Of a stretch of 64,000 bases of DNA, positions 39,246 to 60,728 are shown in pieces (the first letter of the stretch is position 1; every line of letters begins with the position of its first letter). The stretch covers positions 1 to 64,000 of the forward strand of contig JAIXQH010000025.1 of the NCBI GenBank assembly GCA_027484055.1. The letters run 5' to 3'. Origin of the DNA: Verrucomicrobiaceae bacterium (GTDB taxonomy: Bacteria > Verrucomicrobiota > Verrucomicrobiia > Verrucomicrobiales > Akkermansiaceae). The translations under genes were made by a program, and so were the position numbers. The notes below the pieces were generated by a model. It was given only the letters and a program-made list of their open reading frames with translations. It ran no database searches and had not been told where the DNA came from.

Positions 39246-40382
39246 TCAAGAAACCGCCAGCAGTGATTCGTCCCAATCCTTCCACACCGGATCGAGATTT
39301 TGCCCGCGCAGCATGGCCGCGATTTCCGCTGGGCTGCGGGTGTCGTGGATTTGAAATTGCTCGGTGGCTTTTTCGCAGCCGGATTTTTCGCTCAGCTCGA
39401 CGCGGCGACCTTTAACGGTGAGGTGTAAATCATCGCCGCCCGCGCCGGTGTAGCCGCCGGGCTCGGTTTTCGCCCCGGCGGACATGTGGGTCACGCCGAG
39501 CGTGGCGATCGCATCCCGCAGCGGCGCTGGCTCGCGGGTGGAAACGACGATGCCGACTTGCGGAAAGAGTAGGCGGAAGACGGCGATGAGCCGGACGAAG
39601 GCTTTGTCCGGTAAATAGAGATCCGGGTCTGGCTCGTATTCATAATTTCCCGCATAAGGGCGCATCCGGGGGAAAGCGATGGTGAATTGGGCCTTCCAGC
39701 AATGGCGGTAGAGGTATTCCAAATGGGCACACAGCGCGAGCGCCTCGAATTTCCAGTTCGCCAAACCAAACAAGGCACCGATCCCGATCCGGCGAAATCC
39801 CCCGGCGTAGGCGCGCTCCGGGCAATCGAGCCGCCAGTCAAAGTTTTTCTTAGGCCCGGCGGTGTGGAGCTGCTGGTAGGTTTCGCGGTGATAGGTTTCT
39901 TGGTAAACGACTAGGCCTTCCGCGCCGTGGTGGACGATGTCGGCGTATTGCTCGTCCTCCATCGGCCCGACTTCGAGGGCGAGTGTGGGGATGAAGGGCT
40001 TGAGCGCGTCGAGGCAGTCCTGCAAGTAGCCCTCGGAGACGAATTTCGGGTGCTCCCCGGCTACGAGTAGCACATTGCGAAATCCGAGGCCGTGCAAATG
40101 CCGCGCCTCCGTGACGACTTGGTCCACGGTCAAGGTGGTGCGGAAAATGGCGGCATCGCGTGAAAAGCCACAGTATTTGCAGTTGTTGACGCACTCGTTG
40201 GAGACGTAGAGCGGGGCGAACAAGCGCATGGTTTTCCCGAAATTCCGTCGCGTCGTCTGCTGGCTCTGACGGGCGAGTTCTTCAAGCGAGCCACCCTTTT
40301 CCTCGGAAATGAGCTGGCTGAAACGCCGCATCAGCGGAGTCGGGTGCGCTAGGAGATCTGGGAAAACATCGGCAAAGGCCAT
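39246..40382 (-). CDS. thiH: 2-iminoacetate synthase ThiH (tyrosine lyase)
   Basis: 378 residues, the usual ThiH length. The radical-SAM motif CVNNCKYC (C-x3-C-x2-C) lies at about residues 64-71, with APLYVSNEC before it and GFSRDAAIFR after it. VLLVAGEHPKFV, LVVYQETYHRETY and FGLANWKFEALALCAHLEYL are typical of the ThiH/BATS family. It cleaves tyrosine to 2-iminoacetate (dehydroglycine) and p-cresol for thiamine thiazole synthesis. No other thi gene is in the window. The preceding 42-bp repeat ends 58 bp after its stop. Confidence 0.92.
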   Translation of the reverse strand: MAFADVFPDLLAHPTPLMRRFSQLISEEKGGSLEELARQSQQTTRRNFGKTMRLFAPLYVSNECVNNCKYCGFSRDAAIFRTTLTVDQVVTEARHLHGLGFRNVLLVAGEHPKFVSEGYLQDCLDALKPFIPTLALEVGPMEDEQYADIVHHGAEGLVVYQETYHRETYQQLHTAGPKKNFDWRLDCPERAYAGGFRRIGIGALFGLANWKFEALALCAHLEYLYRHCWKAQFTIAFPRMRPYAGNYEYEPDPDLYLPDKAFVRLIAVFRLLFPQVGIVVSTREPAPLRDAIATLGVTHMSAGAKTEPGGYTGAGGDDLHLTVKGRRVELSEKSGCEKATEQFQIHDTRSPAEIAAMLRGQNLDPVWKDWDESLLAVS

Positions 40383-40458
40383 GGCGGCGGACTGTGGGTC
40401 AGCATTGCTCAGTGGTCAAAGAAATCTCCGAGAAGCCCTCCGATTCCCCCCAAGCCTG

Positions 40459-42060
40459 TCACTGAGTCCGCTTCCACAGATAGAGCCAGCGCTCGGAGAC
40501 GCATTTGCCGGTTTCATCCTGTAGCTCGCAGGTCAGGTCCATGTCCCCGAGATCCTTCGGCGGCTCACAGACGAAAAATGCCCGCAGCACCTGTGGCATG
40601 TGCAGCTTGTCGCTGCGGCCGAGACCGGCAGGGAGATCGTCCACATTCGGCATGCTGACATCCGAGAGGCCGACGTGGATGAGCTTCACGGCTTGTTGGT
40701 TGATGGTGACGACGGGCTTGAGCTTGGAGATATCATCCCATTTCGGGTCACCGACCTTGGCTTGTGGCTGAAGGGGTTTCGCGAAGTCGATGGCCATCAG
40801 CACCTGGTCCGGCTTCTGGACCGGGGTGCCCGCACGAGTGGAGCGGACGGTGAAAAGGCCGGACGGCGCAGGGTCGCGCATCCAGCGAAGGCGGTATTGA
40901 AAACGATAGGATTTCCCGACTTCCAAGGTCGGCGTGGGCTCCCAGACGAGGATCACGTTGTCGTCCGTCTCGTCCTTCGTAGGCATCTCAATGAGGTGTA
41001 GCTTCCCCAGATCAAAACCCTCAATGGGCTCCACCTTCACGCTGGGGCGATTGTGATAGAGCGCTTCTGGATCTTGGTAGGAGGAAAATGAGCGATCCCG
41101 CTGCACCAGCGCCCATGAGCGAGGTTTCTCCAGGGTGAAAACGCAGTGGCGAAATTGGCCCTGAGTCGTCTCCAGTGGACGGTAGTGCAGATTGCCGCTG
41201 CCCAGCTCCATGAGTAGGCCGTCACTATCGTGCACCTCGGGCCGGAAGTCATAGGGCTTCGGGTGCGTGCTCTCGCCAAACCAGAACATGCTGGAAAAGG
41301 GTGCCAGTCCGAGCTGCGTCACCGGGCGGCGGAGGGTGATTTCCGCGGTGACCTCCATCACCGTCTCCGGCCCTGGGGCGATCACGAACTGATAGGCTCC
41401 CGCCACGCTTTCCCCACTGAGGAGCGCGCTGACTTTGAGCGACTTCGACCCATTTTCTGGCTTCTCTAGATAGAACTCCGAAAAGTCCGGGAACTCCTCC
41501 GGCACCCCCGGCAGGCCGCTATTGATCGAAAGCCCGCGTGCCGAAAGCCCATACGGTGCGTCCTTAGGAATCGCCCGGAAATAGCTCGCGCCCATGAAGA
41601 CGAGGAACTCATCCATGTAGTCCGCCGTGTTCAAGTGCGTGCGCGCCCGCCAGCCCGCATAGCCCTGAGGCGGCGGCGTACCAGCCGGGACTTTCTGCTT
41701 GCCGTAGTCGAACAAGTTCGAGTCGAACTTCATCAATTCCTCTTTCCCGCCACTGACCTCGTGGATCAGCACCATCTTCTTCGCCGTCCAACCGGGATGG
41801 AAGAAATCGATCGAAAAATCCCCTTTCGTTTCCGCCCACAGCCCGGATTCCATCTTGAAACGGATGTCCCGATGCCCGTCGTAGGTCAGATTCTTCCAGT
41901 AATCTGCCAGGTCAAGCTTGGCCGCCACATAGGGCGCGGCGGCCATTTTCCGGGCCTTTTCGCGCAAGATCTCGAAGGAAAAACTCTCCGCAGCGGCAAG
42001 CCCGGTCGCACCGACCAGCAGCGCGCACCCGACCCATAAATGACGACGATGGAAATGCAT
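40459..42060 (-). CDS. opgG: OpgG/MdoG-type glucan biosynthesis protein
   Basis: 533 residues from the ATG at 42060, where a signal peptide begins (HRRHLWVGCALLVGATGLAA then AESFSF); Met at 42072 is an alternative. The open frame continues upstream but there it overlaps ileS. OpgG hallmarks: YKxD-like DYWKNLTYDGHRDIRFK, GYAGWRARTHLN, FLVFMGASYFRAIPKDAPYGLSARGLSI, APFSSMFWFGE and FRHCVFTLEKPRSWALVQRDR. Periplasmic OpgG proteins act on osmoregulated periplasmic beta-glucans made by the glucosyltransferase OpgH, which is not in this window. It diverges from ileS with less than 100 bp between starts. Confidence 0.9.
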   Translation of the reverse strand: MHFHRRHLWVGCALLVGATGLAAAESFSFEILREKARKMAAAPYVAAKLDLADYWKNLTYDGHRDIRFKMESGLWAETKGDFSIDFFHPGWTAKKMVLIHEVSGGKEELMKFDSNLFDYGKQKVPAGTPPPQGYAGWRARTHLNTADYMDEFLVFMGASYFRAIPKDAPYGLSARGLSINSGLPGVPEEFPDFSEFYLEKPENGSKSLKVSALLSGESVAGAYQFVIAPGPETVMEVTAEITLRRPVTQLGLAPFSSMFWFGESTHPKPYDFRPEVHDSDGLLMELGSGNLHYRPLETTQGQFRHCVFTLEKPRSWALVQRDRSFSSYQDPEALYHNRPSVKVEPIEGFDLGKLHLIEMPTKDETDDNVILVWEPTPTLEVGKSYRFQYRLRWMRDPAPSGLFTVRSTRAGTPVQKPDQVLMAIDFAKPLQPQAKVGDPKWDDISKLKPVVTINQQAVKLIHVGLSDVSMPNVDDLPAGLGRSDKLHMPQVLRAFFVCEPPKDLGDMDLTCELQDETGKCVSERWLYLWKRTQ

Positions 42061-42156
42061 GCCAGCCACCATGCAGACATCCAGCCGCTTGGCAATAGCG
42101 TGGCTTTCCCAGAGGTTGACCCCACCGCAGCGCATTGCTAGCGTCCGCGCCCCGTC

Positions 42157-44871
42157 ATGAGCGCCGCACCGAATTACAAAGACACCCTCACTCTTCCGCA
42201 AACGTCGTTCCCGATGCGTGCCGACTTGGTGCAAAATGAACCTGCCCGCCTCGAAGCTTGGGAGAAGGCCGGACTCTACGAAAAAATCCTCGCCCGCCGC
42301 CGTGCGGAAAACGCCCCAACATTCATCCTTCACGACGGCCCACCCTTCGCCAATGGCGACGTCCACATGGGCACCGCGCTCAACAAGCTGCTCAAGGATC
42401 TCGTCGTGAAATCCAAGACCATGGCGGGATTTGCCGCGCCCTTCGTCCCCGGCTGGGACTGCCACGGCCTGCCCATCGAGTTCAAGGTCGTCAAGGAGAC
42501 CGCCGGTCTGGAGCCTGCGGAAATCCGCCGCCGCTGCACCGAGTTTGCCAGCAGCTTCATCGACATCCAGCGCGCCTCCTTCCGCCGTCTCGGCGTGTTC
42601 GGTGACTGGGAAAATCCCTATCTCACCATGAATCCCGGCTACGAGGCCAGCATCCTACGCGTCTTCTCCAAGCTCGTGGAAAATGGGAGTATCTACCAAG
42701 CCAAGAAGCCCGTGCAATGGTCCTACGGCGCGCAAACCGCCCTCGCCGAGGCCGAAGTCGAGTATGCCGACAAGGAAAGCCCGGCGATTTTCGTCAAGTT
42801 CCCGCTTCTTGAGAAAGCCGCCAGCATGGTCATCTGGACCACCACCCCGTGGACACTCCCGGCCAATCTCGGCATCGCCGTGCATCCCGATTTCACCTAC
42901 GTGGTCGCGAAGTTTTCCAAGGGTGAAGTCCAAGAAACCTTCGTCATCGTCCGCGAACTCGTCGCCTCCTTCACCGAAAAAACCGGCTACGTCCTCACGG
43001 AGACCCTAGAAGAAATCAAAGGCCGTTCGCTCGACCAGCTCAGCGCCCAGCACCCCTTCCTCGACCGCCACTCCAAGCTCATCCTCGCCAACTTCGTCAC
43101 CACCGACACCGGCACCGGCGCGGTTCACATCGCCCCCGGCCACGGCTCGGACGACTACATGGCGGGCCAGCAAAACGGCCTCGGCGTGCTTTCCCCGGTC
43201 GATGACGCCGGGAAATTCACCGCAGAAGTCGGCCTCGACGAACTCATCGGCGTCCACGTTTTCAAGTCGAATGCCCGCATCATCGAGATCCTCAGCGAGA
43301 GCGGCCACCTGCTTGGCCAAGAAGTTTACCGGCACTCCTACCCGCATTGCTGGCGCTCGAAAACGCCCATCATCTTCCGCGCCGTCGAGCAGTTTTTCAT
43401 CTCCCTCGACACCCTCCGCGGCCAAGCACTTTCAGAAATCGACCAGGTCGAATGGCTCCCCGCTTGGGGCCGGAATCGCATCTACGGCACCGTCGAGTCG
43501 CGCCCGGATTGGTGCATCTCGCGCCAGCGGACCTGGGGCGTGCCACTGCCCGTCTTCTTCGGCGAAAATGGCGAGGTCATCCTCTCCTCCGACCTCGCGC
43601 TCAAGGTCGCCGACCTCGTTGAAAAAGAAGGCACCAACCTCTGGTTCGAGAAATCCGACGCCGAACTCGCCGCCCTCCTCGGCCTGCCAGCGGGCGTGAA
43701 AAAATGCCGAGACACCCTCGACGTCTGGATCGATTCCGGCTGCTCACACCACGCCGTGCTCGACGCCCATCCTCAACTCCACTGCCCCGCCGATCTCTAC
43801 TTGGAAGCCACCGACCAGCACCGTGGCTGGTTCCAGAGTTCGCTCATGCTCAGCACCGGCTTCCGTGGCCACGCGCCCTACAAGACCGTCATGACCCACG
43901 GCTTCGTGGTGGATAAGGATAAGAAAAAAATCTCCAAGTCAGACGCCGCCAAGTCCGGCAAACCCACCGACGCCGCCCATTTCTACAATCAATACGGAGC
44001 CGACATCGTCCGCCTCTGGGTCTCCTCCGTGGACTGGCAAAACGAAGTCCCCTTTGGCGAAGATCTCTTCAAACAAGTCGCCGAGCCCTACCGCCGCCTG
44101 CGAAACACGCTGCGGATTCTCTTGGGAAATCTCGATGGCTTCGATCCCTCTTCATCTCCGATCTCCGATCCCCAATCTCCGATCCCTCTCCTCGACCGCT
44201 GGATTCTCGAACGTCTCCACACCGTCACCGCCGAGTGCCTCGCCGCTTACAAGACCTACGAATTCCGCAAGGTCTTCAATGCGCTGAATAACTTTTGCAC
44301 CGCCGACCTCTCCGCCATCTACATCGACGCCACCAAGGACCGCATGTATTGCGACGCCGCCACGTCCCCCCGCCGCCTCGCCTCGCAAGCGGCAATGCAT
44401 GAAATTTTCACTAGCATCGCGAAATTGCTCGCGCCCATCCTCGCCTACACCGCTGACGAGGCCTGGGAGCACGCCGCTTTCACCACCGGCAGCGTCCACG
44501 AGCAGGATTTCCCCGTGGCCAATCCCAGCTTCGCCCCCGGCGAGGCGACGCAACAAGTGTCACGGCTTTTTGAGATCAAATACGCCATCCAGACCGCCAT
44601 CGAGAGCTGCATCCAAGCCAAGGAATTCACGCGGAACAACGAGGCGGACGTCACGCTCATCCTCCCCGCGAGTGATGCAGGATTGTTGGAAATGCTCAAT
44701 GACCGTGAATTTGCCACCGAGTTTTTCATCATCGCCGGTCTAACCGCCACAGTCGGGGATTCACTCACCGCCACCGCCCGCAAGACCGAGCACCCACTCT
44801 GCCCCCGCTGCCGCAAGCACGAGCCACTGCTGGAAAGCGGTCTTTGCGAACGGTGTGATGCGGTTTGCTGA
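42157..44871 (+). CDS. ileS: isoleucyl-tRNA synthetase
   Basis: 904 residues, as for bacterial type IleRS. The class I HIGH motif reads HMGT (residues 70-73) and KMSKS reads KISKS (591-595). The CP1 editing region has TTTPWTLPANLGIAVHP, and GWDCHGLPIE and WCISRQRTWGVPLP are present. The C-terminal zinc ribbon has CPRCRKHEPLLESGLCERC. It charges tRNA-Ile and edits valine. A low-complexity Ser-Pro insert (SSSPISDPQSPI) interrupts the region before the anticodon domain. A near-copy of the last 41 bp recurs at 46317. Confidence 0.97.
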   Translation: MSAAPNYKDTLTLPQTSFPMRADLVQNEPARLEAWEKAGLYEKILARRRAENAPTFILHDGPPFANGDVHMGTALNKLLKDLVVKSKTMAGFAAPFVPGWDCHGLPIEFKVVKETAGLEPAEIRRRCTEFASSFIDIQRASFRRLGVFGDWENPYLTMNPGYEASILRVFSKLVENGSIYQAKKPVQWSYGAQTALAEAEVEYADKESPAIFVKFPLLEKAASMVIWTTTPWTLPANLGIAVHPDFTYVVAKFSKGEVQETFVIVRELVASFTEKTGYVLTETLEEIKGRSLDQLSAQHPFLDRHSKLILANFVTTDTGTGAVHIAPGHGSDDYMAGQQNGLGVLSPVDDAGKFTAEVGLDELIGVHVFKSNARIIEILSESGHLLGQEVYRHSYPHCWRSKTPIIFRAVEQFFISLDTLRGQALSEIDQVEWLPAWGRNRIYGTVESRPDWCISRQRTWGVPLPVFFGENGEVILSSDLALKVADLVEKEGTNLWFEKSDAELAALLGLPAGVKKCRDTLDVWIDSGCSHHAVLDAHPQLHCPADLYLEATDQHRGWFQSSLMLSTGFRGHAPYKTVMTHGFVVDKDKKKISKSDAAKSGKPTDAAHFYNQYGADIVRLWVSSVDWQNEVPFGEDLFKQVAEPYRRLRNTLRILLGNLDGFDPSSSPISDPQSPIPLLDRWILERLHTVTAECLAAYKTYEFRKVFNALNNFCTADLSAIYIDATKDRMYCDAATSPRRLASQAAMHEIFTSIAKLLAPILAYTADEAWEHAAFTTGSVHEQDFPVANPSFAPGEATQQVSRLFEIKYAIQTAIESCIQAKEFTRNNEADVTLILPASDAGLLEMLNDREFATEFFIIAGLTATVGDSLTATARKTEHPLCPRCRKHEPLLESGLCERCDAVC

Positions 44872-44940
44872 GAGAGCCTAACATCAAGGGGACGCATTCA
44901 CGTGCCAACGTCGGCCATGGCGCTCCCGGCTTAGGAACGC

Positions 44941-44993
44941 CGACGCCTACGTCGGCGCGAAACCCACGCACCAGCCCCGCATTGACGTGCCAA
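44941..44993. repeat. dispersed repeat, copy 1 of 2
   Basis: 53 bp beginning CGACGCCTACGTCGGCGCGA and containing CACCAGCCCCGCATT. It is almost identical to 46253-46305 on the other side of the sterol-desaturase gene. Its start forms an 8-bp hairpin with the preceding bases (CGCCGACG-CCTA-CGTCGGCG, 44938-44957). Related GTGCCAACGT...GGCGTTCCCG segments sit on both sides (44900-44935 and 44985-45015), so the whole 44880-45020 interval looks like a REP-type repeat cluster. Confidence 0.75.
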
Positions 44994-45070
44994 CGTAGGC
45001 GTTGGCGTTCCCGCCTCCTACCCTATCAGCGACCTTGCCAACCAACCGCATTTTCAGCTAGAGAAGGGCC

Positions 45071-46225
45071 ATGAAAAAACTCGTCGAGACTCACCAGAAG
45101 ATCCGCGCCGAACTGGAAGCACCAGCGGCCCTGCGGAACTTCGGGAGTGGCTGGTGGAGCGGAGCCTTGGGGATCATCCTCGCAGTCGCAGCTTTGGGCG
45201 GGATTTTATGTGTCTGGTTTCCGAGTTATTTCAGCATCCGGGAATTGGCGAAACTGCATCAAACCGGGTGGTACCGGCCCGCATTGTTGGTGGTGATCAT
45301 CCTGGCGTTTTTGTTCTCACTCTTGAGCTTGCTGCTCCGCCCGACGAAGACGCTCGGCATGACCGCGATGTTTCTCAGCCTGCTGGGTCTGACGATCTGC
45401 GGAAACGGACTCGCTCCCCTCACGACTGAAGCCACACCGTTTTACTTCGGTTTAGATTTCTTTTTACTCAGGCTACTGCTGACCGGGCTGGTATTCATCC
45501 CGTTCGAGAACCTCTTCCCGACCCGCTCAGGACAGGGCATTTTCCGCTACGAGTGGCGCGAAGACTTGTTCTACTTTTTCGTCAGTAGCATGCTGGTGCA
45601 GCTCTTGACTTGGCTCTCGCTGATGCCGGCGAACACCCTTCTAGCGGTCACCCAGTGGAGCAGCTTCCGCGCTTGGGTGGCGGCGTTGCCGTTCTTGGTG
45701 CAGGTGTTCGCAATCATGTTGTTGACCGATTTCGTGCAGTATTGGGTCCACCGGACGTTTCATCGGGTGCCGTTCTTATGGCGCTTCCACTCGGTGCATC
45801 ATTCCGCGCAGTGCATGGACTGGATGGCCGGGGCACGCATGCATTTCCTGGAAATCCTCATCCTCCGCGGCACTACCGTTATCCCCATGATCATCCTCGG
45901 CTTCAGCCCGGCGGCGGTGAATACCTATCTACTCATCGTCTATCTGTATGCCACCTTCGTGCACGCCAACCTTGGATTCCGTTTCGGGTTTCTGGAAAAA
46001 TTTCTCGTCACCCCACGCTTCCACCATTGGCATCATGGGATCGAAAAAGAGGCGATCGACGTGAACTTCGCGGTGCATTTTCCATGGTATGACAAGCTTT
46101 TCGGCACGCAGCACCTGCCCGAGGACAATCGCTGGCCGGAAGGCTACGGCATCAGCGGCAACCCGGTGCCAAGCGGGTATTGGAAGCAATTCCTCCACCC
46201 GTTCCGCAGGAAGCCGAACAAGTGA
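45071..46225 (+). CDS. sterol desaturase/fatty acid hydroxylase family protein
   Basis: 384 residues with about six or seven hydrophobic helices. The di-iron His boxes of the superfamily are all visible: HRTFH (about 229), HSVHH (about 242) and HHWHHG with an upstream His (about 317-322), plus a fourth region EKEAIDVNFAVHFPWYDKLFGT typical of the family. Members are membrane di-iron oxygenases acting on sterol or fatty acyl chains; the substrate here is unknown. It stands alone between two repeat clusters. Confidence 0.88.
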   Translation: MKKLVETHQKIRAELEAPAALRNFGSGWWSGALGIILAVAALGGILCVWFPSYFSIRELAKLHQTGWYRPALLVVIILAFLFSLLSLLLRPTKTLGMTAMFLSLLGLTICGNGLAPLTTEATPFYFGLDFFLLRLLLTGLVFIPFENLFPTRSGQGIFRYEWREDLFYFFVSSMLVQLLTWLSLMPANTLLAVTQWSSFRAWVAALPFLVQVFAIMLLTDFVQYWVHRTFHRVPFLWRFHSVHHSAQCMDWMAGARMHFLEILILRGTTVIPMIILGFSPAAVNTYLLIVYLYATFVHANLGFRFGFLEKFLVTPRFHHWHHGIEKEAIDVNFAVHFPWYDKLFGTQHLPEDNRWPEGYGISGNPVPSGYWKQFLHPFRRKPNK

Positions 46226-46252
46226 ACGAATGCGCTCCCAACTCAGGAGCGT

Positions 46253-46305
46253 CGACGCCTACGTCGGCGCGAAACCCACTCACCAGCCCCGCATTCGCGT
46301 GCCAA
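46253..46305. repeat. dispersed repeat, copy 2 of 2
   Basis: Near-identical to 44941-44993 with about four substitutions, same orientation. It begins 27 bp after the sterol-desaturase stop. Confidence 0.75.
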
Positions 46306-46316
46306 AGCAGCCTTGG

Positions 46317-46357
46317 TGGAAAGCGGTCTTTGCGAACGGTGTGACGAGGTGGTGTAG
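46317..46357 (+). pseudogene. duplicated remnant of the ileS 3' end
   Basis: 41 bp matching 44831-44871 at about 36 positions, including a 28-bp exact block starting TGGAAAGCGGTCTTTGCGAA. In the ileS frame it would read ESGLCERCDEVV-stop, against ESGLCERCDAVC-stop in the real gene. There is no open frame leading into it, so it is a non-coding scar of duplication or rearrangement. Confidence 0.7.
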
Positions 46358-46422
46358 CGGCAGGATGACGATCAATTCGAGCTGACAGTCCTCGCCATCA
46401 AGTCAGGGAAATCATTGGTATC

Positions 46423-46545
46423 AACCACAGATCAACAGGATAGACGCAGATGGAAGAGGGGATAAGAAATGCAGTTTCGGTGTTTCACTCGCGAATTCCG
46501 CCTCTTTATCTTCTTAATCTGCGTACATCCCTTTCATCTGTGGTT
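46423..46545. repeat. dispersed palindromic repeat (ACCACAGAT type)
   Basis: The left arm AACCACAGATCAACAGGATA continues to GACGCAGAT (46423-46451). The right arm runs AATCTGCGT to TTCATCTGTGGTT (46516-46545). The arms are imperfectly complementary. Similar palindromes are scattered through many bacterial genomes; no coding function is evident. Confidence 0.7.
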
Positions 46546-46592
46546 CGCTGCCATCTCACGGGCTGGCGATTCTCCCTAACTTGATCGCGGTG
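46485..46592. repeat. direct repeat flanking the GloVer gene, copy 1
   Basis: Starts TCACTCGCGAATTCCG and ends AACTTGATCGCGGTG, with GCCATCTCA between. Both edges and the middle recur at 49716-49795 after the GloVer gene; copy 1 has an extra 38 bp carrying the right arm of the ACCACAGAT palindrome. Confidence 0.6.
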
Positions 46593-46614
46593 TGAAAACA
46601 CGAGGATTTCACAC
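46590..46614. promoter_or_regulatory. 8-bp inverted repeat before the candidate small RNA
   Basis: GTGTGAAA (46590-46597) and TTTCACAC (46607-46614) are exact inverted arms with a 9-nt spacer, immediately before a TTGCCA -35-like hexamer at 46616. It could be an operator or simply part of the repeats. Confidence 0.3.
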
Positions 46615-46645
46615 CTTGCCAAATTTCATTTTTTGATAAGTATAG

Positions 46646-46758
46646 GCCGCATGTGCTGGCTCTCAGTTAGTTCTTTCAAACGAAAGCTCAGTCCGTCGAA
46701 ACCGCCTAAAGAGTCGGGGGCGCACTCCTCCGCCGCCAACTTCCTTGGCGGCTTTTTT
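46646..46758 (+). ncRNA. candidate structured small RNA or leader with its own terminator
   Basis: A TTGCCA (46616) and TATAGG (46641) pair could be a promoter (spacing slightly long). The following about 110 nt have a CTTTC-AAAC-GAAAG hairpin (about 46673-46686) and a GC-rich middle. They end in a strong terminator with GCCGCCAA and TTGGCGGC arms and six T (46732-46758). No open frame is convincing and no known RNA family was recognised. It could be a leader of the downstream gene. Confidence 0.35.
46732..46758 (+). terminator. Rho-independent terminator
   Basis: Perfect 8-bp stem GCCGCCAA (46732-46739) with TTGGCGGC (46745-46752), 5-nt loop, followed by TTTTTT. It may end a small RNA or, less likely given 507 bp of distance, the sterol-desaturase transcript. 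Confidence 0.75.
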
Positions 46759-46810
46759 ATGCCCCAAAACCGCGCATTCCGCAGTGAGCGCCACCGTGAA
46801 GAGGGTTTTC

Positions 46811-46887
46811 ACCGCCAAGCCGCCAAGGGCGCCAAGTTTTCAGAAACAAAAAACCTCTTCCCTTTTCTTACTTGGCGGCTTGGCGGT
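46811..46887. repeat. dispersed palindromic repeat with perfect 17-bp arms
   Basis: ACCGCCAAGCCGCCAAG (46811-46827) and CTTGGCGGCTTGGCGGT (46871-46887) are exact inverted copies around an A/T- and C-rich 43-bp centre. It is of the widespread non-coding palindrome type. Confidence 0.85.
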
Positions 46888-47018
46888 TCCAAATTCTTTC
46901 TCTCCCGCCCGCAACCGCACGGTTTTACTCCACAACCACCCCTTCCCCGCCATTCCAATCGAACAGGCTGAGACCGTCGCCTCATCGTTTAACTTTTTCC
47001 CGATCTCCAATCTCCGTG

Positions 47019-49700
47019 ATGAGCCCTACCCTTCCACTCTCGTTTCTCCGCCTCTGGCGGGGCTTTATTCCGGCGCTTCTGCTGTGGGCATCCGCCATCC
47101 AAACGCACGCAGTGCCAGTATTCGAGCCGGTGCAGGCGTTCGGGCTTTCTCCTGCATCCCCGGAGACCAAGTTGATCCAAGCCAGCGACGGCAATTTCTA
47201 TGGCACGACTGATGGCGGCGGCAGTAGCGGCTACGGCACGGTGTTCAAGATTACGGCCAGTGGTACGCTTGTTACCTTGATTAGTTTTACCGGAGCTAAT
47301 GGCAGCTATCCCCAAGCCGGGTTGCTACAGGGTAGCGACGGCAATTTCTACGGCACGACTTCTCAGGGCGGGAGCGGCGGCGAAGGCACGGTGTTCAAGA
47401 TTACGGCCAACGGCACGCTCACCACCTTGGTGAATTTCGACGGCACTGATGGCCTTTCTCCCCGAGCCGAGCTGGTGCAGGGCAGCGACGGGAATTTCTA
47501 TGGCACGACCTATGGCACAACCTATGGCTATAGCAGCACCAAGGGCACGGTCTTCAAGATGACGGCCAGCGGCACGCTCACCACCTTGGTGAATTTCACT
47601 GGAGATAATGGCAGATCTCCCCGAGCCGGTTTAGTGCAAGGCAGCGACGGCGATTTCTATGGTACGACTGAGCGAGGCGGCAGCCGCGACGACGGCACGG
47701 TGTTCAAGGTCACGACCAGTGGCACGCTTACCACCTTGGTGAATTTCAACGACTCCTTTGCCGGCTTTCCCCAAGCCGGTCTAGTGCTGGGCAGCGACGG
47801 GAATTTTTATGGCACAACCGTAGGTGGCGGTGACAGAAACTATGGCACCGTGTTCAAGATGACGCCCAGCGGCATGCTCTCTATCTTGGTCTATTTTGAT
47901 AGGACTAATGGCAGCGCTCCCAAAGCCGGGCTGGTGCAGGGCAGGGACGGGAATTTTTACGGTACGACTAAGCTGGGCGGCAGCCGCGGTTACGGCACGG
48001 TGTTCAAGGTGACGGCCAGCGGCACGCTCACCACCTTGGTGAATTTCACCGAAGCCGATTACTTTCCCTCCGCCGGTTTGGTGCAGGGCAGCGACGGGAA
48101 TTTCTATGGCACGAACTATGGCGGTAGCAGCGGCTATGGCATGGTCTTCAAGATGACGGCCAGCGGCACGCTCACTACCCTGGTATATTTCACCAACACC
48201 AGCGGCAGCTATCCCAAAGCCGGGCTGGTGCAAAGCAGCGACGGGAATTTCTATGGCACGACAGGAAGTGGCGGCAGCAGCGGCGGGGGCACAGTGTTCA
48301 AGATGACGGCCAGCGGTACGCTCACCACCTTGGTGAATTTCAACTACAGCAATAGCAGTATACCCCAAGCCGGGCTGGTGCAGGGTATCGATGGCAATTT
48401 CTATGGCACGACTAATGGCACGACCTATCGCGGTATCACCGACTATGGCACGGTCTTCAAGATGACGCCCAGTGGCACGCTCACCACCTTGGTGAATTTC
48501 AACTCCAGCGGTGGCAGATACCCCAAAGCCGCGCTGGTGCAGGGCAGCGACGGCAATTTCTATGGCACGACTGGTGCGGGCGGCAGCAGCGACTTTGGCA
48601 CGGTGTTCAAGATGACGGCCAACGGCACGCTCACCACCTTGGTGAATTTCAACTTCACCAATGGCAGCTATCCCAAAGCCGGGCTGGTGCAGGGCAGCGA
48701 CGGAAATTTCTATGGCACGACTGTATATGGCGGCAGCAGCGACTTTGGCACGGTGTTCAAGATGACGGCCACTGGCACGCTCACCACCTTGGTGAATTTC
48801 ACCGGCTCCAACGGCATCCATCCCGAAGCCGAGCTGGTACAGGGCAGCGACGGGAATTTCTACGGAACAACTTCTGCTGGGGGCACCGGCGACTTCGGAA
48901 CGATGTTCCGAATGACACCCAGCGGCACGCTCACCACCTTGGTCAATTTCACTGGCACCAATGGAAGCTATCCCGTAGCCGGGCTGTTGCAGGGCAGCGA
49001 CGGGAATTTCTATGGCACGACCAGCGATGGCGGTATCAGCGGTGGCGGCACAGTGTTCCAGATAACACCCACCGGCACACTCACCACCTTGGTCAATTTC
49101 ACCGGAGACAATGGCAGCTACCCCGGAGCCGGACTGATCCGTGCATTGGACGGAAATCTATACGGTACAACAGTCTCTGGAGGCACCACCTCTGACGGCC
49201 AGCCCGGTGGAGGTGGCCAGATCTACCGGTTGAGATTCGGGCCTGCTTCAACGAGCAGTGCTTATCCCACATGGGCGGCTACTCAGTTTTCCACGCCGCA
49301 ACTTGCCGATGCACTCGTCAGCGGGCCAAGTGCTGATCCAGACAAGGACGGATTGGTGAATCTCTTGGAATGCGCGTTTAACCTGAATCCCCTCACATCA
49401 GGGAACCCCATTCTAATTTCAAACACAGGTCTTTCAGGCTTACCCTTGATCTCATCCACCGGCAGCGGTGCATCCCTCCGCCTCCGTCTGGAATACCTCC
49501 GCCGCAAAGCCGCCACCCATCCCGGCCTCAGCTACACCCCGCAGTTCTCATCGACTCTTACGGGGACCTGGTCCACCGCCACAGGGCCGGAAACCGTGCA
49601 ATCCATCGACTCGGAATGGGAGCGCGTGACGGTTGAGGAAGCCACCAGCGGCGGCGACAACCGCTTCGGGCAGGTGATGGTGAGCTCTACCGAAAATTGA
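47019..49700 (+). CDS. secreted GloVer-repeat (TIGR03803-type) protein
   Basis: 893 residues from the ATG at 47019, chosen because a signal peptide starts there (FLRLWRGFIPALLLWASAIQ before THAVPVFE); the frame is open 49 codons further up but is low-complexity. The body is 14 tandem units of about 50 residues with the core GSDGNFYGTT, then GGS-x-GYGTVFKMTASGTL and TTLVNF, as in the repeat family named for Gloeobacter and Verrucomicrobia. The C-terminal region has DPDKDGLVNLLECAFNLNP and LEYLRRKA, shared with the other exported proteins here. It is probably a beta-propeller-like surface protein; the role is unknown. The high DNA identity between units favours length variation. Confidence 0.88.
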   Translation: MSPTLPLSFLRLWRGFIPALLLWASAIQTHAVPVFEPVQAFGLSPASPETKLIQASDGNFYGTTDGGGSSGYGTVFKITASGTLVTLISFTGANGSYPQAGLLQGSDGNFYGTTSQGGSGGEGTVFKITANGTLTTLVNFDGTDGLSPRAELVQGSDGNFYGTTYGTTYGYSSTKGTVFKMTASGTLTTLVNFTGDNGRSPRAGLVQGSDGDFYGTTERGGSRDDGTVFKVTTSGTLTTLVNFNDSFAGFPQAGLVLGSDGNFYGTTVGGGDRNYGTVFKMTPSGMLSILVYFDRTNGSAPKAGLVQGRDGNFYGTTKLGGSRGYGTVFKVTASGTLTTLVNFTEADYFPSAGLVQGSDGNFYGTNYGGSSGYGMVFKMTASGTLTTLVYFTNTSGSYPKAGLVQSSDGNFYGTTGSGGSSGGGTVFKMTASGTLTTLVNFNYSNSSIPQAGLVQGIDGNFYGTTNGTTYRGITDYGTVFKMTPSGTLTTLVNFNSSGGRYPKAALVQGSDGNFYGTTGAGGSSDFGTVFKMTANGTLTTLVNFNFTNGSYPKAGLVQGSDGNFYGTTVYGGSSDFGTVFKMTATGTLTTLVNFTGSNGIHPEAELVQGSDGNFYGTTSAGGTGDFGTMFRMTPSGTLTTLVNFTGTNGSYPVAGLLQGSDGNFYGTTSDGGISGGGTVFQITPTGTLTTLVNFTGDNGSYPGAGLIRALDGNLYGTTVSGGTTSDGQPGGGGQIYRLRFGPASTSSAYPTWAATQFSTPQLADALVSGPSADPDKDGLVNLLECAFNLNPLTSGNPILISNTGLSGLPLISSTGSGASLRLRLEYLRRKAATHPGLSYTPQFSSTLTGTWSTATGPETVQSIDSEWERVTVEEATSGGDNRFGQVMVSSTEN

Positions 49701-49715
49701 TGACCCGGGATTCCT

Positions 49716-49795
49716 CACTCGCGAATTCCGTCTCTTCATCAGCGGTTCAATGCCATCTCAGTTGTTGGCGAACCGCCCCAACTTGATCGCCGTGG
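49716..49795. repeat. direct repeat flanking the GloVer gene, copy 2
   Basis: Matches 46485-46592 at both ends (TCACTCGCGAATTCCG and AACTTGATCGCCGTGG) and at GCCATCTCA in the middle. It starts 15 bp after the GloVer stop. Confidence 0.6.
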
Positions 49796-49858
49796 CGGCC
49801 AATCCTGACAATTTTTCTTGCTAGCGGGGCATGAGTTAACGGGTAATAGTCAGCTCAG

Positions 49859-50395
49859 ATGTCTCATTGTTTGCATGATCCAAAAATGAGTCTCATGCGG
49901 CTTCTATCCTTCCGGTTAGGAGATGCATTGCTGGCGTTTCGTCAGGATGAAATCCGGGAAGTGCTTTTACTACCCACGCTCGTGCAGGTTCCGGAGCAGC
50001 CCGAGTTGGTGCGAGGTTTTTGTCGCGGGGCCGACCGCTTTTGGCCGGTGCTCTGCCTAGCTGGGCTGCTCGGTCTGGAGCGGAGTGCAGTCACGGCGGA
50101 ATCCGCACTGATTTTTCCGCGCCATGGGATGGGCTTAGGCGAGAGTGACTTTGCACTTCTGGTGGATGGCTTGGATGGGTCGGTGATGACCACGGATGCA
50201 CTACTGGATGCCCCGTCCCGCTACACATGGAATGCCTTATGTGCGGGAGTGGCGCAGGTCGGCGATAGGGAAATTCCCGTCCTGCAAATTGACCGACTCA
50301 TGCATGAGGAGGAGCGCTTGCGCATGGTGCGCTGGTCGCAAAAAGAGGTCGCACGCTTGGCGAGCTGGCCTGAAACCCCTGCCGAAACGCCATGA
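49859..50395 (+). CDS. cheW: CheW-like coupling protein (WspB position)
   Basis: 178 residues; the Met at 49886 is an equally possible start, since the domain begins at LLSFRLGDALLAF. It shows a CheW fold: LVQVPEQPELVRGFCRGADRFWPVLCLAGLLGL is the conserved proline/glycine-rich core, followed by FALLVDGLDGSVM and a C-terminal IPVLQIDRL. It links a chemoreceptor to CheA. It is first of seven overlapping genes whose types match the Wsp system (CheW, CheR, CheW, MCP, CheA, CheB). Its stop overlaps the cheR start by 4 bp. Confidence 0.85.
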   Translation: MSHCLHDPKMSLMRLLSFRLGDALLAFRQDEIREVLLLPTLVQVPEQPELVRGFCRGADRFWPVLCLAGLLGLERSAVTAESALIFPRHGMGLGESDFALLVDGLDGSVMTTDALLDAPSRYTWNALCAGVAQVGDREIPVLQIDRLMHEEERLRMVRWSQKEVARLASWPETPAETP

Positions 50396-51726
50396 CCCTG
50401 CTGGCTTCCACTGCCGAGGGCGAGTTCCTCAACTCGCTGATTGATCTACTGGTCCGGCGTTCAGGGATGGTGACCTTGCGTGAGCGGAGGCTGGAAGTCT
50501 TGGCAGCAACCCGTGAGTTGGCGGTGGCGACGGGATGTGCTGGCATGGGTGATTATTTGGAGAAACTCACCACTCCGGAGAATGGGAACGCCCTTGATGA
50601 GCTGATTGAGCGACTGACGATTGGTGAAACGTATTTCCTGCGTCACCCGGAAGTTTTTGCCGCGCTGGAGAGCGAGGTGTTTCCCTCCTGGTTGGCAGCG
50701 AGCGGCCCGATTCAAATCTGGTCCGCCGCCTGCTCCATCGGCTGTGAGCCATACTCACTGGCCATTGCTTGGAAGGAATTTCTGGCAGCCCGTCAGTTAT
50801 GGGGGCCGGAGCTAGCCATTTTGGGAACGGATCTGAATACGAACTACCTCCAGCAAGCAGGGGACGCGATTTACAGCTCCTGGTGTTTTCGAAATCTCAG
50901 CGCCGGGTGGATCCACACCTTCTGCGAGCCACGGGATGATAAATTCCAACTCAAGGAGCCTTATCGCAAAGGAGTGAGTTTCCAGCGCTTCAACCTGCTC
51001 GATGCACCAAGCAGCATCGGCCTTGTCGACGGCTCGCTGGATGTGATTTTTTGCCGGAATGTGATGATTTATTTTGATCAGGCGACGATTTCACGGCTCG
51101 CACAAACCTTTCATCGGCTGCTCAGACCCGGCGGATGGTTGATCCCAGGGGCGAGCGAATGCAACACCGAGCTATTCTCCTCGTTCAGCGCTGTGAATTT
51201 CGCGGGCGCGGTTTTTTACAAAAAGGAAGGGAATGCACAACCATCCCCGAGCTTGAGAAATTTTGCCCCGTGGGAGCCTCCGGTTTTCCCACCGCCGAAC
51301 AAGTCCCGGCAAGTTAGACAGGCCCCAGCCGATTCCAGCCGCGCCGAAATCGTAGCGGACATTCTGGCGGGGCGCTGCGAGCAGGCATCGGAAAAAATTT
51401 CCCGCCATCTCCAGCTTCAAAAAATGAATCCTGACTGGCATTTCCTGTTGGGACTCGTGCAGGAAATCACCGAGATCCCGGACGCTGCGGAGGCGTCTTA
51501 TCGGAAATGCCTCTACCTCTCGCGGGATCACCTCGAGGCACAGGTCAATCTCGCCCTGTTGCTCATGCGCCTAGGCCGCACCGAAGCCGCCAATCGCGCC
51601 AAACGAGTCGCGCTGCGCAGCCTGGAAAACAGCACATCCACAGCGGACTTGCTTTGCCCCCGAGGGGCCGTGTCCGTTGAGCGGATCCGCCATTTACTCA
51701 ATCCTGAAAGTTCCTCCCACGCATGA
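50392..51726 (+). CDS. cheR: CheR methyltransferase with TPR region (WspC-like)
   Basis: 444 residues. Residues about 10-85 are the CheR N-terminal helical domain (ERLTIGETYFLRHPEVFAAL). Residues about 95-275 are the SAM-binding domain with IWSAACSIGCEPYSLAI, ILGTDLNTNYL and DVIFCRNVMIYFD. The C-terminal 120 residues contain TPR-like helices (WHFLLGLVQEITEIPDAAEASYRKCLYL, HLEAQVNLALLLMRLGR), as in WspC. It methylates glutamates of the chemoreceptor encoded two genes on. Overlaps both neighbours by 4 bp. Confidence 0.93.
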   Translation: MTLLASTAEGEFLNSLIDLLVRRSGMVTLRERRLEVLAATRELAVATGCAGMGDYLEKLTTPENGNALDELIERLTIGETYFLRHPEVFAALESEVFPSWLAASGPIQIWSAACSIGCEPYSLAIAWKEFLAARQLWGPELAILGTDLNTNYLQQAGDAIYSSWCFRNLSAGWIHTFCEPRDDKFQLKEPYRKGVSFQRFNLLDAPSSIGLVDGSLDVIFCRNVMIYFDQATISRLAQTFHRLLRPGGWLIPGASECNTELFSSFSAVNFAGAVFYKKEGNAQPSPSLRNFAPWEPPVFPPPNKSRQVRQAPADSSRAEIVADILAGRCEQASEKISRHLQLQKMNPDWHFLLGLVQEITEIPDAAEASYRKCLYLSRDHLEAQVNLALLLMRLGRTEAANRAKRVALRSLENSTSTADLLCPRGAVSVERIRHLLNPESSSHA

Positions 51727-52250
51727 TCGACCGCGAACCGGAAAAACTCACCACCTTGCTGGATGCACGGGCCGCCCATTTCAGGAAGCCACGTGCGGGA
51801 GTGGCTGGAAATGACGACTCGAACGCCATTCGCGGCCTCGCCATGGCGGTGGCCGAACTGGTGTTGGTGATCCCGGAGGCGGCACTTTTCGGACTCGTCC
51901 GGCATCCCCATGTCATCCCCGTTTCAGGCCAGCCAGCTGCATGCCTCGGAATCGTGCAGTTCCGGTCCCGTTTTTTTGATGTGTTCTGCGCCTCCCGCCT
52001 GCTGGGTTGGGCGGCTCCGAGCGGGTTGATCGACCATCTCGTATTTTGCGAAATTCCCGGATTCACCTTCGCCTTGTCGGTGGGGCTGCCTCAAGGCTTG
52101 GTTTCCTACCCACCGAGCGGGGTGAATGAAATCGCCCGCCACGCCTGGCCAGCTGCCTTGCCCAAGCAGCTCGCGCCTACCACCTTTTTGCTAGACCTAT
52201 CCGAACTCACTCGCCACTCCGCATTTCAGGTAAAACAATCCAAACCATAA
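51723..52250 (+). CDS. cheW: second CheW-like coupling protein (WspD position)
   Basis: 175 residues. After a charged 35-residue start, a CheW-like domain is recognisable from AVAELVLVIPEAALFGLVRHPHVIPVSG and CLGIVQFRSRFFDVFCASRLLGW. It is diverged, and the assignment relies partly on position between cheR and the receptor gene, where wspD lies in Wsp-type clusters. Two CheW proteins per cluster are typical of this class. Confidence 0.75.
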   Translation: MIDREPEKLTTLLDARAAHFRKPRAGVAGNDDSNAIRGLAMAVAELVLVIPEAALFGLVRHPHVIPVSGQPAACLGIVQFRSRFFDVFCASRLLGWAAPSGLIDHLVFCEIPGFTFALSVGLPQGLVSYPPSGVNEIARHAWPAALPKQLAPTTFLLDLSELTRHSAFQVKQSKP

Positions 52251-52252
52251 TC

Positions 52253-53941
52253 ATGAACCAATCCCACTCCGTCAGGATGAGTATTTCACGCAAGCTGCTG
52301 CTCCTTTTCCTAGGGCTCTGCTTCAGTTTTTTCGCCCTCATTGGTTACAGCGCTTGGAGCTTCAGTGAAGTGGGCCACGAGTTATCCTTCATGGGGCAGA
52401 ATAAATTGCCGACCCTATCGGACACCTCATTGATCAAGGAATCCGTGTTCGGTCAGCAGCAGGTGATCAACAACCTAGCGGCCAATATGCTAGCCCGGGA
52501 GCGCGCTTTGGCCGATTTCTCGGCAGCTGGCGCGGTCGCCACCCGCTTGCTCGGAGAAACGACCGATGGCAAAAACCTTCGGCAATATTTGATCGAAACC
52601 CTCGCCAAGGAGAAAAGCGAAGGCCACCTCGATCAAGAAAAAGCCGATGCTCTTAACGTTGCAACCATCGCCGCCGCCTACCGGGAATTCGTCAACCGGG
52701 CGAATGACTATTTGGCCGCGACCGCCACGCCTAACAACGGCAACCAACAAACCGCACTCAACGCCGTGGACGACGCGACAGCCGAGCTTCTCAGCCGCAT
52801 CCAGAAATTCGACTCCACCACTCTGGAGTTCATGACGGAGGACACCATCGTGCTGCAGGAGAAACAGCAAAACTTGTTGAAGCTCATCGCCATCGCTGGC
52901 CTCGTCATTTTTGCCGCCTCCGTCATGATCACCCTGAGTCTCGTCAAAAAAATCACCGGCCCACTCACCGAACTCACCAGTCTTTCGGCAAAGATCGCCA
53001 GTGGCGACCTCACGGGCCAAATCGGAGCCGTCCGCACCGGCGACGAGCTGGAAATCCTCGCCGATTCCTTCGGCACCATGAGCGGGAACCTGAGGAGCCA
53101 GATCGAGGAAATGCGCAAGGGCGTGGAAATGCTCAGTTCGGCGATCAGCGAAATCGGATCATCCATTCAGGAGCAGGCTTCCAGCGCCAAGGAAGAGGCG
53201 GCGACGATCCAAGAAATCACCACCACCATGCAGGAAATCCAACAGTCCGGCACGGAAATCAGCCAGCGCGCCAAGGACGTGAGTGTCGGTGCGGAAAACA
53301 CCCTGGATGCCGGAGAAGCCGGTCTCCAAGCCGTGTTGAAAACCTCCGAAAGCATGGAGCGCATCCGCGAGCAGGTCGAGGAAGTCGCCGAAAAAATCGT
53401 CAGCCTCAGCGAAAAGACCCAGGCCATCGGCGAGATCGTCGCCACCGTCAACGAGATCGCCGAGCAGTCGAACATCCTCGCCATCAACGCCAGCATCGAG
53501 GCCGCCTCCGCCGGAGAAAGCGGCAGCCGTTTCTCCGTGGTGGCCCAGGAAATGAAGCACCTCGCGGATCAGGCGAAAACCTCCACCCGGATGGTGCGGG
53601 GCATCCTCGAGGAAATCCAAAAAGGCATCAACACTTCGGTGATGCTCACGGAGGAAGCCGTGAAACGCACCGATTCCGGTCGCGCCCAAGCCTCGGTGGC
53701 ACAGGGCAGCATCCATAAATTGGCGGAGTCGATCCAGAGCAGCGTGCAAACCTTCCAACAAATCATCGCCGGAACCGGGCAGCAGCAAATCGGCATCAAC
53801 CAGGTGGTCCAAGGGATGCAGGACATCAAGCAGGCGGTGCAGCAAACCGTCACGGGCATTTCCCAACTCGAACAGGCCACCCGCGGCTTGAATGACATGG
53901 GCGTCAATCTCCGCACCTTCGTCACCCGCTACAAACTTTGA
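52253..53941 (+). CDS. methyl-accepting chemotaxis protein (WspA position)
   Basis: 562 residues. TM1 is at about 13-33 and a helical extracytoplasmic sensor of about 170 residues follows (four-helix-bundle-like). TM2 is at about 207-230, HAMP at about 232-285 (KKITGPLTELTSLSAKIASGDL), then a long coiled-coil signalling domain with the hairpin tip EIAEQSNILAINASIEAASAGESG. It is rich in Gln/Glu pairs suitable for methylation. The protein sits in the inner membrane and controls the CheA encoded next. In Wsp the receptor senses surface contact or envelope stress; its ligand here is unknown. Confidence 0.93.
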   Translation: MNQSHSVRMSISRKLLLLFLGLCFSFFALIGYSAWSFSEVGHELSFMGQNKLPTLSDTSLIKESVFGQQQVINNLAANMLARERALADFSAAGAVATRLLGETTDGKNLRQYLIETLAKEKSEGHLDQEKADALNVATIAAAYREFVNRANDYLAATATPNNGNQQTALNAVDDATAELLSRIQKFDSTTLEFMTEDTIVLQEKQQNLLKLIAIAGLVIFAASVMITLSLVKKITGPLTELTSLSAKIASGDLTGQIGAVRTGDELEILADSFGTMSGNLRSQIEEMRKGVEMLSSAISEIGSSIQEQASSAKEEAATIQEITTTMQEIQQSGTEISQRAKDVSVGAENTLDAGEAGLQAVLKTSESMERIREQVEEVAEKIVSLSEKTQAIGEIVATVNEIAEQSNILAINASIEAASAGESGSRFSVVAQEMKHLADQAKTSTRMVRGILEEIQKGINTSVMLTEEAVKRTDSGRAQASVAQGSIHKLAESIQSSVQTFQQIIAGTGQQQIGINQVVQGMQDIKQAVQQTVTGISQLEQATRGLNDMGVNLRTFVTRYKL

Positions 53942-56514: not shown

Positions 56515-57572
56515 AAAAAATTTCCGTATTGGTCGTCGAAGACTCCCCGACGATGAGACTCCTGCTGGAGGAAATCATTAGCGCCGATCCTCGTTTGACG
56601 CTGATGGCTTCCTGCGAGTCGGCCGAGCAAGCGATCGAACGCCTAGCCACCGAGCGGCCGGACATCATTTCGATGGATATTCTGCTTCCCGGCATCGACG
56701 GGCTGGAGGCGATCCGCCGCATCCTTGCCGAGGCGCCCATTCCCGTGGTGGTCATTTCCTCCACGACTTCCAGCGCCGAGTCGCGCCATGCGATGGAGGC
56801 GCTTCAGGCCGGTGCGTTGACGGTGTTGCCGAAACCCGAGGGGCCTGACTCGCCGAATTTCGCCCGCCACTGCCGCCGCATCACCGACCAGCTTGCCGCG
56901 ATGAGCCAAGTCCGGGTGATTCGCCGCATCAAACCGCGCCTTTCCAACGAGGGGCAGTCCGCTTTTTCACTGCCGGGTTCCCTCGCCGCCAGCGGGCCAA
57001 GTCAGGCCGTACGCGCCATCGGGATCGCGGCATCGACCGGCGGCCCGGTTGCGCTGCTCGAACTGCTTGCGCCGCTGCCTGCGACATTTCCCATCCCCAT
57101 TCTGTTGGTGCAGCACATCGCTGTCGGCTTTGGGGAAAGTTTCGCGCAGTGGCTCAATGAGTCGCTCGCGCTCCGTGTCTGCTACGCGGAACACCTATGC
57201 CCCTTGTTGCCCGGCCATGTGTATCTAGCTCCGGATGGAAAACACCTCGCCGTGATGGATCATCGCTGCGTGCTGCTGGATTCCCCGCCTGTCGGAGTGC
57301 ATCGTCCCTCCGCCACGGTGCTATTTGAAAGTCTGGCGAAGGAATATGGAGCCGCTGCCGTCGGCATTATTCTAACCGGTATGGGCCAGGATGGCGCGCA
57401 GGGACTGGTGACGATGCGCCGGGCAGGTGCTTGGACCTGCGGCCAGGATGAAGAATCTTGCATGGTTTTCGGCATGCCGCAAGCTGCTGAACAAATGGGC
57501 GCATTGAGCGCATTGATGTCACTAACGGCTATTTCGAATACCCTCAACCGAATGAACTTATGCCTGAATTAG
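56511..57572 (+). CDS. cheB: CheB methylesterase response regulator (WspF-like)
   Basis: 353 residues starting with GTG at 56511 (GTGA overlap with cheA). The receiver (1-125) has Glu10/Asp11 and phospho-acceptor Asp56 in ISMDILLPG, with a KPEG Lys. The methylesterase domain (about 165-350) has [16 protein letters not shown] (catalytic Ser), LVQHIAVGF (His) and [13 protein letters not shown] (Asp). It removes receptor methyl groups and resets the array. Overlaps the next gene by 13 bp. Confidence 0.95.
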
Positions 57573-60167: not shown

Positions 60168-60728
60168 ATGACATTTCCCAAGCTCCTCCTCGTCCTCACC
60201 CTGCCACTTTACGTGCTCGACCAGATCACGAAGTTCTGGACGGTGGGGAAATTTCCGCCGCCTTCGCCCTATGGAATCACTGAGATTCCGGTCATTGAAA
60301 ACGTGTTTTATCTCGTCCGAGTCCACAATCAGGGAGTGGCCTTCGGCTTTGGAAATGGCTCGGCGTGGGCACCGATTGTGTTCATGGTAGTTCCCATTTT
60401 CGCACTGACCCTGATCCGGATTTTTTGGAAAAAGGGCGTCTTTAAGCATCTGATTTCCCAAGTCGCAGTCGCCCTTCTGCTCTGTGGAATTTTCGGCAAT
60501 CTGACGGACCGCCTCGTGCAGGGCTTTCTCTTAGAAGAGTTCCGTTCGGCCAGTATCTGGGAGCGCCTGACTCAGGGCTATGTGGTGGATTTCCTGTCGG
60601 TGCAGTTGCCGTTTTATGGCCGCTGGCCCGCGTTTAATGTGGCAGATTCCTGCATCTGCATCGCCGCGTTCCTGCTCTTCATCGGCGGCATCTACGAGGA
60701 GCGCTTAGCCAAGCATGGGAAATCCTAG
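60168..60728 (+). CDS. lspA: lipoprotein signal peptidase
   Basis: 186 residues from the ATG at 60168, where the first membrane helix begins; a longer frame from 60099 adds a non-membrane stretch. Four membrane helices and the family motifs: VHNQGVAFGFG, GNLTDRL followed by GYVVDFL (first catalytic Asp region) and FNVADSCI (second catalytic Asp). It cleaves diacylated prolipoproteins in the inner membrane. The insert between the two Asp regions (VQGFLLEEFRSASIWERLTQ) is longer than in E. coli LspA. Confidence 0.93.
   Translation: MTFPKLLLVLTLPLYVLDQITKFWTVGKFPPPSPYGITEIPVIENVFYLVRVHNQGVAFGFGNGSAWAPIVFMVVPIFALTLIRIFWKKGVFKHLISQVAVALLLCGIFGNLTDRLVQGFLLEEFRSASIWERLTQGYVVDFLSVQLPFYGRWPAFNVADSCICIAAFLLFIGGIYEERLAKHGKS

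Follow-up and report, generated by a model that had tools for sequence, protein, structure and literature searches.

The window, meaning the whole stretch of 64,000 nucleotides that was analyzed, comes from a bacterium whose closest relatives mark it as a verrucomicrobium and carries the gene for isoleucyl-tRNA synthetase (ileS) followed, after a gap of 15.3 kb, by lspA. This gap contains a gene for a membrane protein of the desaturase type, repeats on either side of it, a gene for a tandem-repeat protein, MITE-like hairpins and a chemosensory cluster (Table 1).

Table 1. Features of the ileS–lspA interval, with positions in the window.
Feature	Positions	Strand	Basis
ileS, isoleucyl-tRNA synthetase, 904 aa, ending ...LLESGLCERCDAVC-stop	42157–44871	+	ORF; Pfam tRNA-synt_1 and Anticodon_1
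ileS tail, left copy, within the working gene	44828–44871	+	repeat alignment
REP/BIME-like palindrome cluster, arms 44893–44931, 44934–44959 and 44986–45011; contains the 53-bp repeat (44941–44993)	44893–45016	+	fold, pattern search
Fatty acid hydroxylase/sterol desaturase superfamily membrane protein, 384 aa	45071–46225	+	Pfam PF04116, E 1.1e-30
REP-like cluster, second, truncated copy; second arm worn or cut	46232–46316	+	alignment, fold
ileS tail, right copy, headless; the ileS frame gives LVESGLCERCDEVV-stop	46314–46357	+	repeat alignment, codon comparison
MITE-like hairpin element, dispersed, ~195 bp, near-complementary ends	46394–46592	+	genome search, fold
Tandem-repeat protein, GSDGNFYGTT units; start codon uncertain	46872–49700	+	ORF; no Pfam family at E 1e-5
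MITE-like element, truncated copy	49715–49794	+	alignment
Chemosensory cluster: CheW, CheR, 175-aa ORF, MCP, CheA with receiver, CheB, hybrid histidine kinase	49859–60082	+	Pfam
lspA, signal peptidase II, adjoins ileS in most relatives	60168–60728	+	relatives' loci, Pfam

The 3′ end of ileS recurs behind the desaturase gene. Positions 44828–44864 and 46314–46350 agree at 34 of 37 bases, a single run of 28 included, with a genome-wide E value of 3.6e-8 and a local alignment score of 59 (maximum of 22 in 500 dinucleotide shuffles). The stop codons align, TGA at 44869–44871 in the left copy with TAG at 46355–46357 in the right, and the working gene ends in DAVC-stop where the right copy ends in DEVV-stop. 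The initial annotation had described the last 41 bp as recurring with the position of the stop conserved and two codons changed; the stop is indeed kept in place, but two is the number of altered amino acids, and every one of the final five codons differs (GAT GCG GTT TGC TGA in the left copy vs GAC GAG GTG GTG TAG in the right). The second repeat, annotated at 53 bp, sits in a longer match between 44920–44993 and 46232–46305 that is identical at 89% of 74 bases and scores 110, where the best of 500 dinucleotide shuffles reached 30. Both repeats thus lie at the coordinates first assigned to them and score far above shuffled sequence, and no further comparably strong copy of either was found in the 4.4-Mb genome. 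The change in the order of the segments from one side of the desaturase gene to the other was also correctly observed: the layout is tail–REP–desaturase–REP′–tail′, a set of nested direct repeats with offsets of 1486 (tail) and 1312 (REP) bases in which the right REP copy and the right tail overlap at a common TTGG/TGG. Nested direct repeats with these offsets cannot come from one duplication, and a single duplication for both is likewise ruled out by the nature of the 53-bp repeat.

This repeat is part of a palindromic element. The left cluster forms a long hairpin (−62.6 kcal/mol, z = −5.6) and the right copy a fold of −28.9 kcal/mol (z = −2.5); the arms alternate in orientation, with facing arms at 44934 (+) and 44989 (−). 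The arm pattern GGARCGCCRACGNNNNCGTYGGC, with one mismatch allowed, has matches in 21 of 59 genomes including our own, up to 69 in one. The four genomes G054, G037, G051 and G021 contain 69, 17, 16 and 14 matches, respectively, and none to the reversed control pattern, which gave 0 to 2 matches per strand across the 59 genomes. Matches in G054 and G013 also occur in facing pairs, as at C3:41312 (+) and 41350 (−) of G054. The palindromes of G054, G021, G037 and G051 can be written GGARCGCCGACG-NNNN-CGTCGGC, a REP-like family within the order that reaches 69 matches per genome. Judged by its pattern, the 53-bp repeat is a member of this REP/BIME-like family spread through the order. The genome under study has three matches, every one at the ileS–desaturase locus, and therefore falls short of the many extragenic copies by which REP/BIME elements are recognized; because the matches are confined to one locus, we name the element REP-like and do not speak of a REP family of this genome. 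The pattern has no match in G009, a relative discussed below. The initial annotation had suggested looking for the 53-bp repeat elsewhere in the genome. The idea that it is dispersed through this genome was rejected: the palindrome and its wider pattern match only here, apart from weak two-mismatch matches at control level, and it is in some relatives instead that related palindromes are plentiful. The local copies have a common loop and linker and are therefore copies of each other. The REP copies on both sides of the desaturase gene need not have arisen together with the copy of the ileS tail.

The junction into which the desaturase gene is set is usually closed. We compared 40 relatives, the subset of genus genomes for which the locus was retrieved, and in 34 of them lspA lies directly behind ileS: 24 of 28 in one set (exceptions G036, G030, G009 and G023) and 10 of 12 in a second (exceptions G010 and G187), where a 13th locus (L135, from G171) gave no tail and is excluded from every count. 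In G036, G030, G023, G010 and G187 the pair was likewise not found closed, and the DNA examined after ileS (647 bases in G030) contains no copy of the tail; the junction is a changeable one.

The desaturase gene is patchily distributed. Its product is a member of PF04116 (FA_hydroxylase; 107.2 bits, curated cut-off 31) and scores far below the cut-off of the NCBIfam model for the ornithine lipid hydroxylase OlsE (NF052566; 101.7 vs 475 bits). Close relatives were found in three of 260 family genomes, namely our own, G009 (87%) and G271 (76%). In G009, too, ileS and lspA are parted by this gene; the spacers differ from those in the window, and che genes are lacking. Neither the G271 locus (L087) nor nine loci from named records, mostly verrucomicrobial, contain an ileS, lspA or che match within the DNA examined. 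The initial annotation proposed that the desaturase gene entered between, or was rearranged with, duplicated ileS-flank sequence, and suggested a comparison with relatives, in which a constant layout would have counted against it. The layout is not constant, and a variable insert is borne out by its presence in two of the 259 other family genomes and by the closed pair in most relatives; the part of the proposal that does not hold is the derivation of both repeats from the ileS flank in one event, given the REP-type palindrome and the nested order. Nor does the comparison show that the desaturase gene itself gave rise to the tail copy: G009 has ileS–desaturase–lspA and no detectable copy of the tail. 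A 30-base resemblance in its desaturase–lspA spacer (shuffle P 0.02–0.05) was considered as a worn tail copy and rejected, being equalled by 65 of 945 segments of the same region and by 164 of 2508 segments of other loci.

The ileS tree (28 rows) does not place the window next to G009, whose partner there is G030 (97/94), and it requires two changes. Shared descent of the insert is therefore not simple. Together with the patchy distribution of the gene, the tree suggests that two separate uses of the site, an exchange, or repeated loss in several lines may lie behind the pattern. The possibility that ileS has a recombinant 3′ part, nearer to G009 than the remainder of the gene, was also looked at and rejected: in steps of 150 columns, identity to G009 is not raised toward the end, and the 65-base end piece, at 91% identity, is too short to weigh.

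Farther into the gap, other repetitive DNA is present. The MITE-like element has further copies at C9:10930, C22:172076 and C12:11028 and shorter ones at C3:12593 and C62:51541. Repeats at 46485–46592 and 49715–49794, on either side of the tandem-repeat gene, are two copies of this one dispersed element and were rejected as a target duplication around that gene, the product of which has 942 aa encoded by about a dozen units of 150 bases. A short CGCCAAG-type repeat at 46806–46872 has some twenty partial matches of 25–60 bases elsewhere in the genome. Rfam gave no match over 40000–50000.

The origin of the right tail turns on how it differs from the left. Over 13 aligned codons there are five differing sites (CTG/TTG, CTG/GTG, GAT/GAC, GCG/GAG and GTT/GTG), three of them synonymous and none inside the 28-base core. 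At all five, the base of the right tail is found at the same place in the ileS of the 40 relatives, and at the GAG site 35 of the 40 share it. Random changes of the left copy match the relatives equally well in 0.08–1% of trials (P 0.0008–0.01, depending on the stretch chosen), in a test of five sites that was devised after the sequence was seen. The 7 bases that follow the identical core fit an ileS profile better than do 99.8% of the positions in the window. Since the five differences are all ileS-like, a second version of ileS is favoured over a decaying copy, and the right tail resembles the severed end of another ileS allele. That version would have belonged to a very closely related strain or to an ancestor, because the right copy resembles the left far more closely (5 of 39 places different) than it does any relative (7 of 39 for the nearest of the 40, 7 or more for the others). 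Changes on the working ileS after plain copying would in part look ileS-like too.

Two further searches bear on this origin. No direct tail copy lies behind ileS in the 40 relatives, where one weak inverted match of 24 bases was seen in G026, so no second instance backs the mechanism. The DNA after the right tail (46358–46393, then the MITE-like element) matches nothing of what follows ileS in relatives, so the flank that originally lay there is unrecognizable; later insertions could hide it.

We propose, at about even confidence, that recombination left a scar here, at a point where extra DNA came to lie between ileS and lspA, and that the right tail is the end of a second version of ileS. 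Two closely related versions would once have been present in one chromosome, and a crossover would have fallen within the stretch of ~28 bases common to both. The end of one version would then have stayed on the working gene, and that of the other would have been left stranded past the desaturase gene, ~1.49 kb farther downstream. The REP/BIME-like pair that flanks the desaturase gene is a separate matter from the tail copy. We infer the crossover inside ileS, the insert that it would have accompanied and the order of these events.

The serious rival is local duplication, in which replication slippage with template switching produced the right REP and the right tail from their left counterparts, with no need for a second allele of ileS; in a variant, the right-hand repeats would be the remnant of a 1.49-kb tandem duplication (tail–REP–desaturase–REP′) whose second copy was deleted. 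Between them, these two forms are a substantial possibility that we nevertheless place short of probable. They account for the anatomy almost as well as a recombination scar does: both copies keep the orientation of their source and lie no more than 1.5 kb from it, the two right-hand repeats overlap, no other strong copy of either was found in the genome, and the abrupt loss of identity after 28 matching bases fits a cut end. Two source patches in swapped order, though, call for two switches or two events. The main point against local duplication lies in the coding-like differences described above, as an unselected copy should change at random.

Two other readings are special forms of the recombination scar. 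In one, it was the chemosensory block and not the desaturase gene that brought the tail copy, a donor segment ileS end–che–lspA having been joined by homology in lspA and by a chance joining at the right REP. G009, with its desaturase gene and no che genes, is in keeping with a separate arrival of the block, as is CheB, for which 36 genus genomes hold nothing above 34–35% (34 of them no relative at E 1e-30) and which finds its best matches, at 45–47%, in another family of the order. There is, however, no sign that lspA was imported together with the block: the identity of lspA is about what ileS predicts (residual −0.030, sd 0.044), and no relative examined has ileS followed by these che genes. 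We regard this reading as unlikely.

The other special form is site-specific insertion at the 3′ end of ileS, in the manner of e14 at icd, with the tails as attL and attR of a small desaturase element that brought its own ileS end. A direct repeat of the 3′ end of a gene, with a short identical core and then differing, coding-compatible ends, is what such an event would leave, and the insert is present or absent among relatives, most of which have ileS and lspA uninterrupted. The 1.5-kb segment between the repeats, however, has no integrase or recombinase among its ORFs, the desaturase gene being the sole credible gene. The segment is unmatched in 50,697 phage records, 72,556 plasmid records give three matches to the desaturase part only, the core is absent from the IMG/VR contigs searched, and the tail repeat occurs in none of the 40 relatives. 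With no recombinase between the repeats and no phage or plasmid match beyond the desaturase gene, we do not file the locus as an e14-type element and consider this reading very unlikely. Just as poor are the prospects of a reading in which REP–desaturase–REP′ is a small mobile cassette with no recombinase of its own. Like e14 at icd, it would enter at the 3′ end of ileS, give the gene a new end and strand that of the host, and G009 would carry a second, worn insertion at the same site.

The locus shows how an essential gene of a normally tight pair can come to lie 15 kb from its neighbour and still keep a working end, and the readable trace left behind probably reflects two versions of ileS in one chromosome. 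It is a tidy example and carries the warning that repeats flanking a gene may have two unrelated origins.

The kinds of event at this locus are already known. Excerpts of one account of e14 at icd in E. coli (PMC6379469) describe a prophage whose own sequence takes the place of the 3′ end of the gene, changing Asp to Glu, and a displaced piece of icd that remains. As far as those excerpts go, the likeness lies in the 3′ end of a gene present twice, once joined and once stranded beyond an insert, with a conservative coding difference; e14, in contrast, is a 15.2-kb prophage that displaces 163 bp of icd, compared with an interval of 1.5 kb, a repeat of ~40 bp and no integrase seen here. The MITE-like element resembles MITEs in its length, its near-complementary ends and its several dispersed copies. 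REPs are reported in the PVC superphylum, in excerpts of PMC3733652. Our locus resembles REP/BIME elements in its palindromes with stems of ~7–8 bp, loops of 4 bases and facing pairs tens of bases apart, and differs from them in the concentration of its three pattern matches at one place in the genome.
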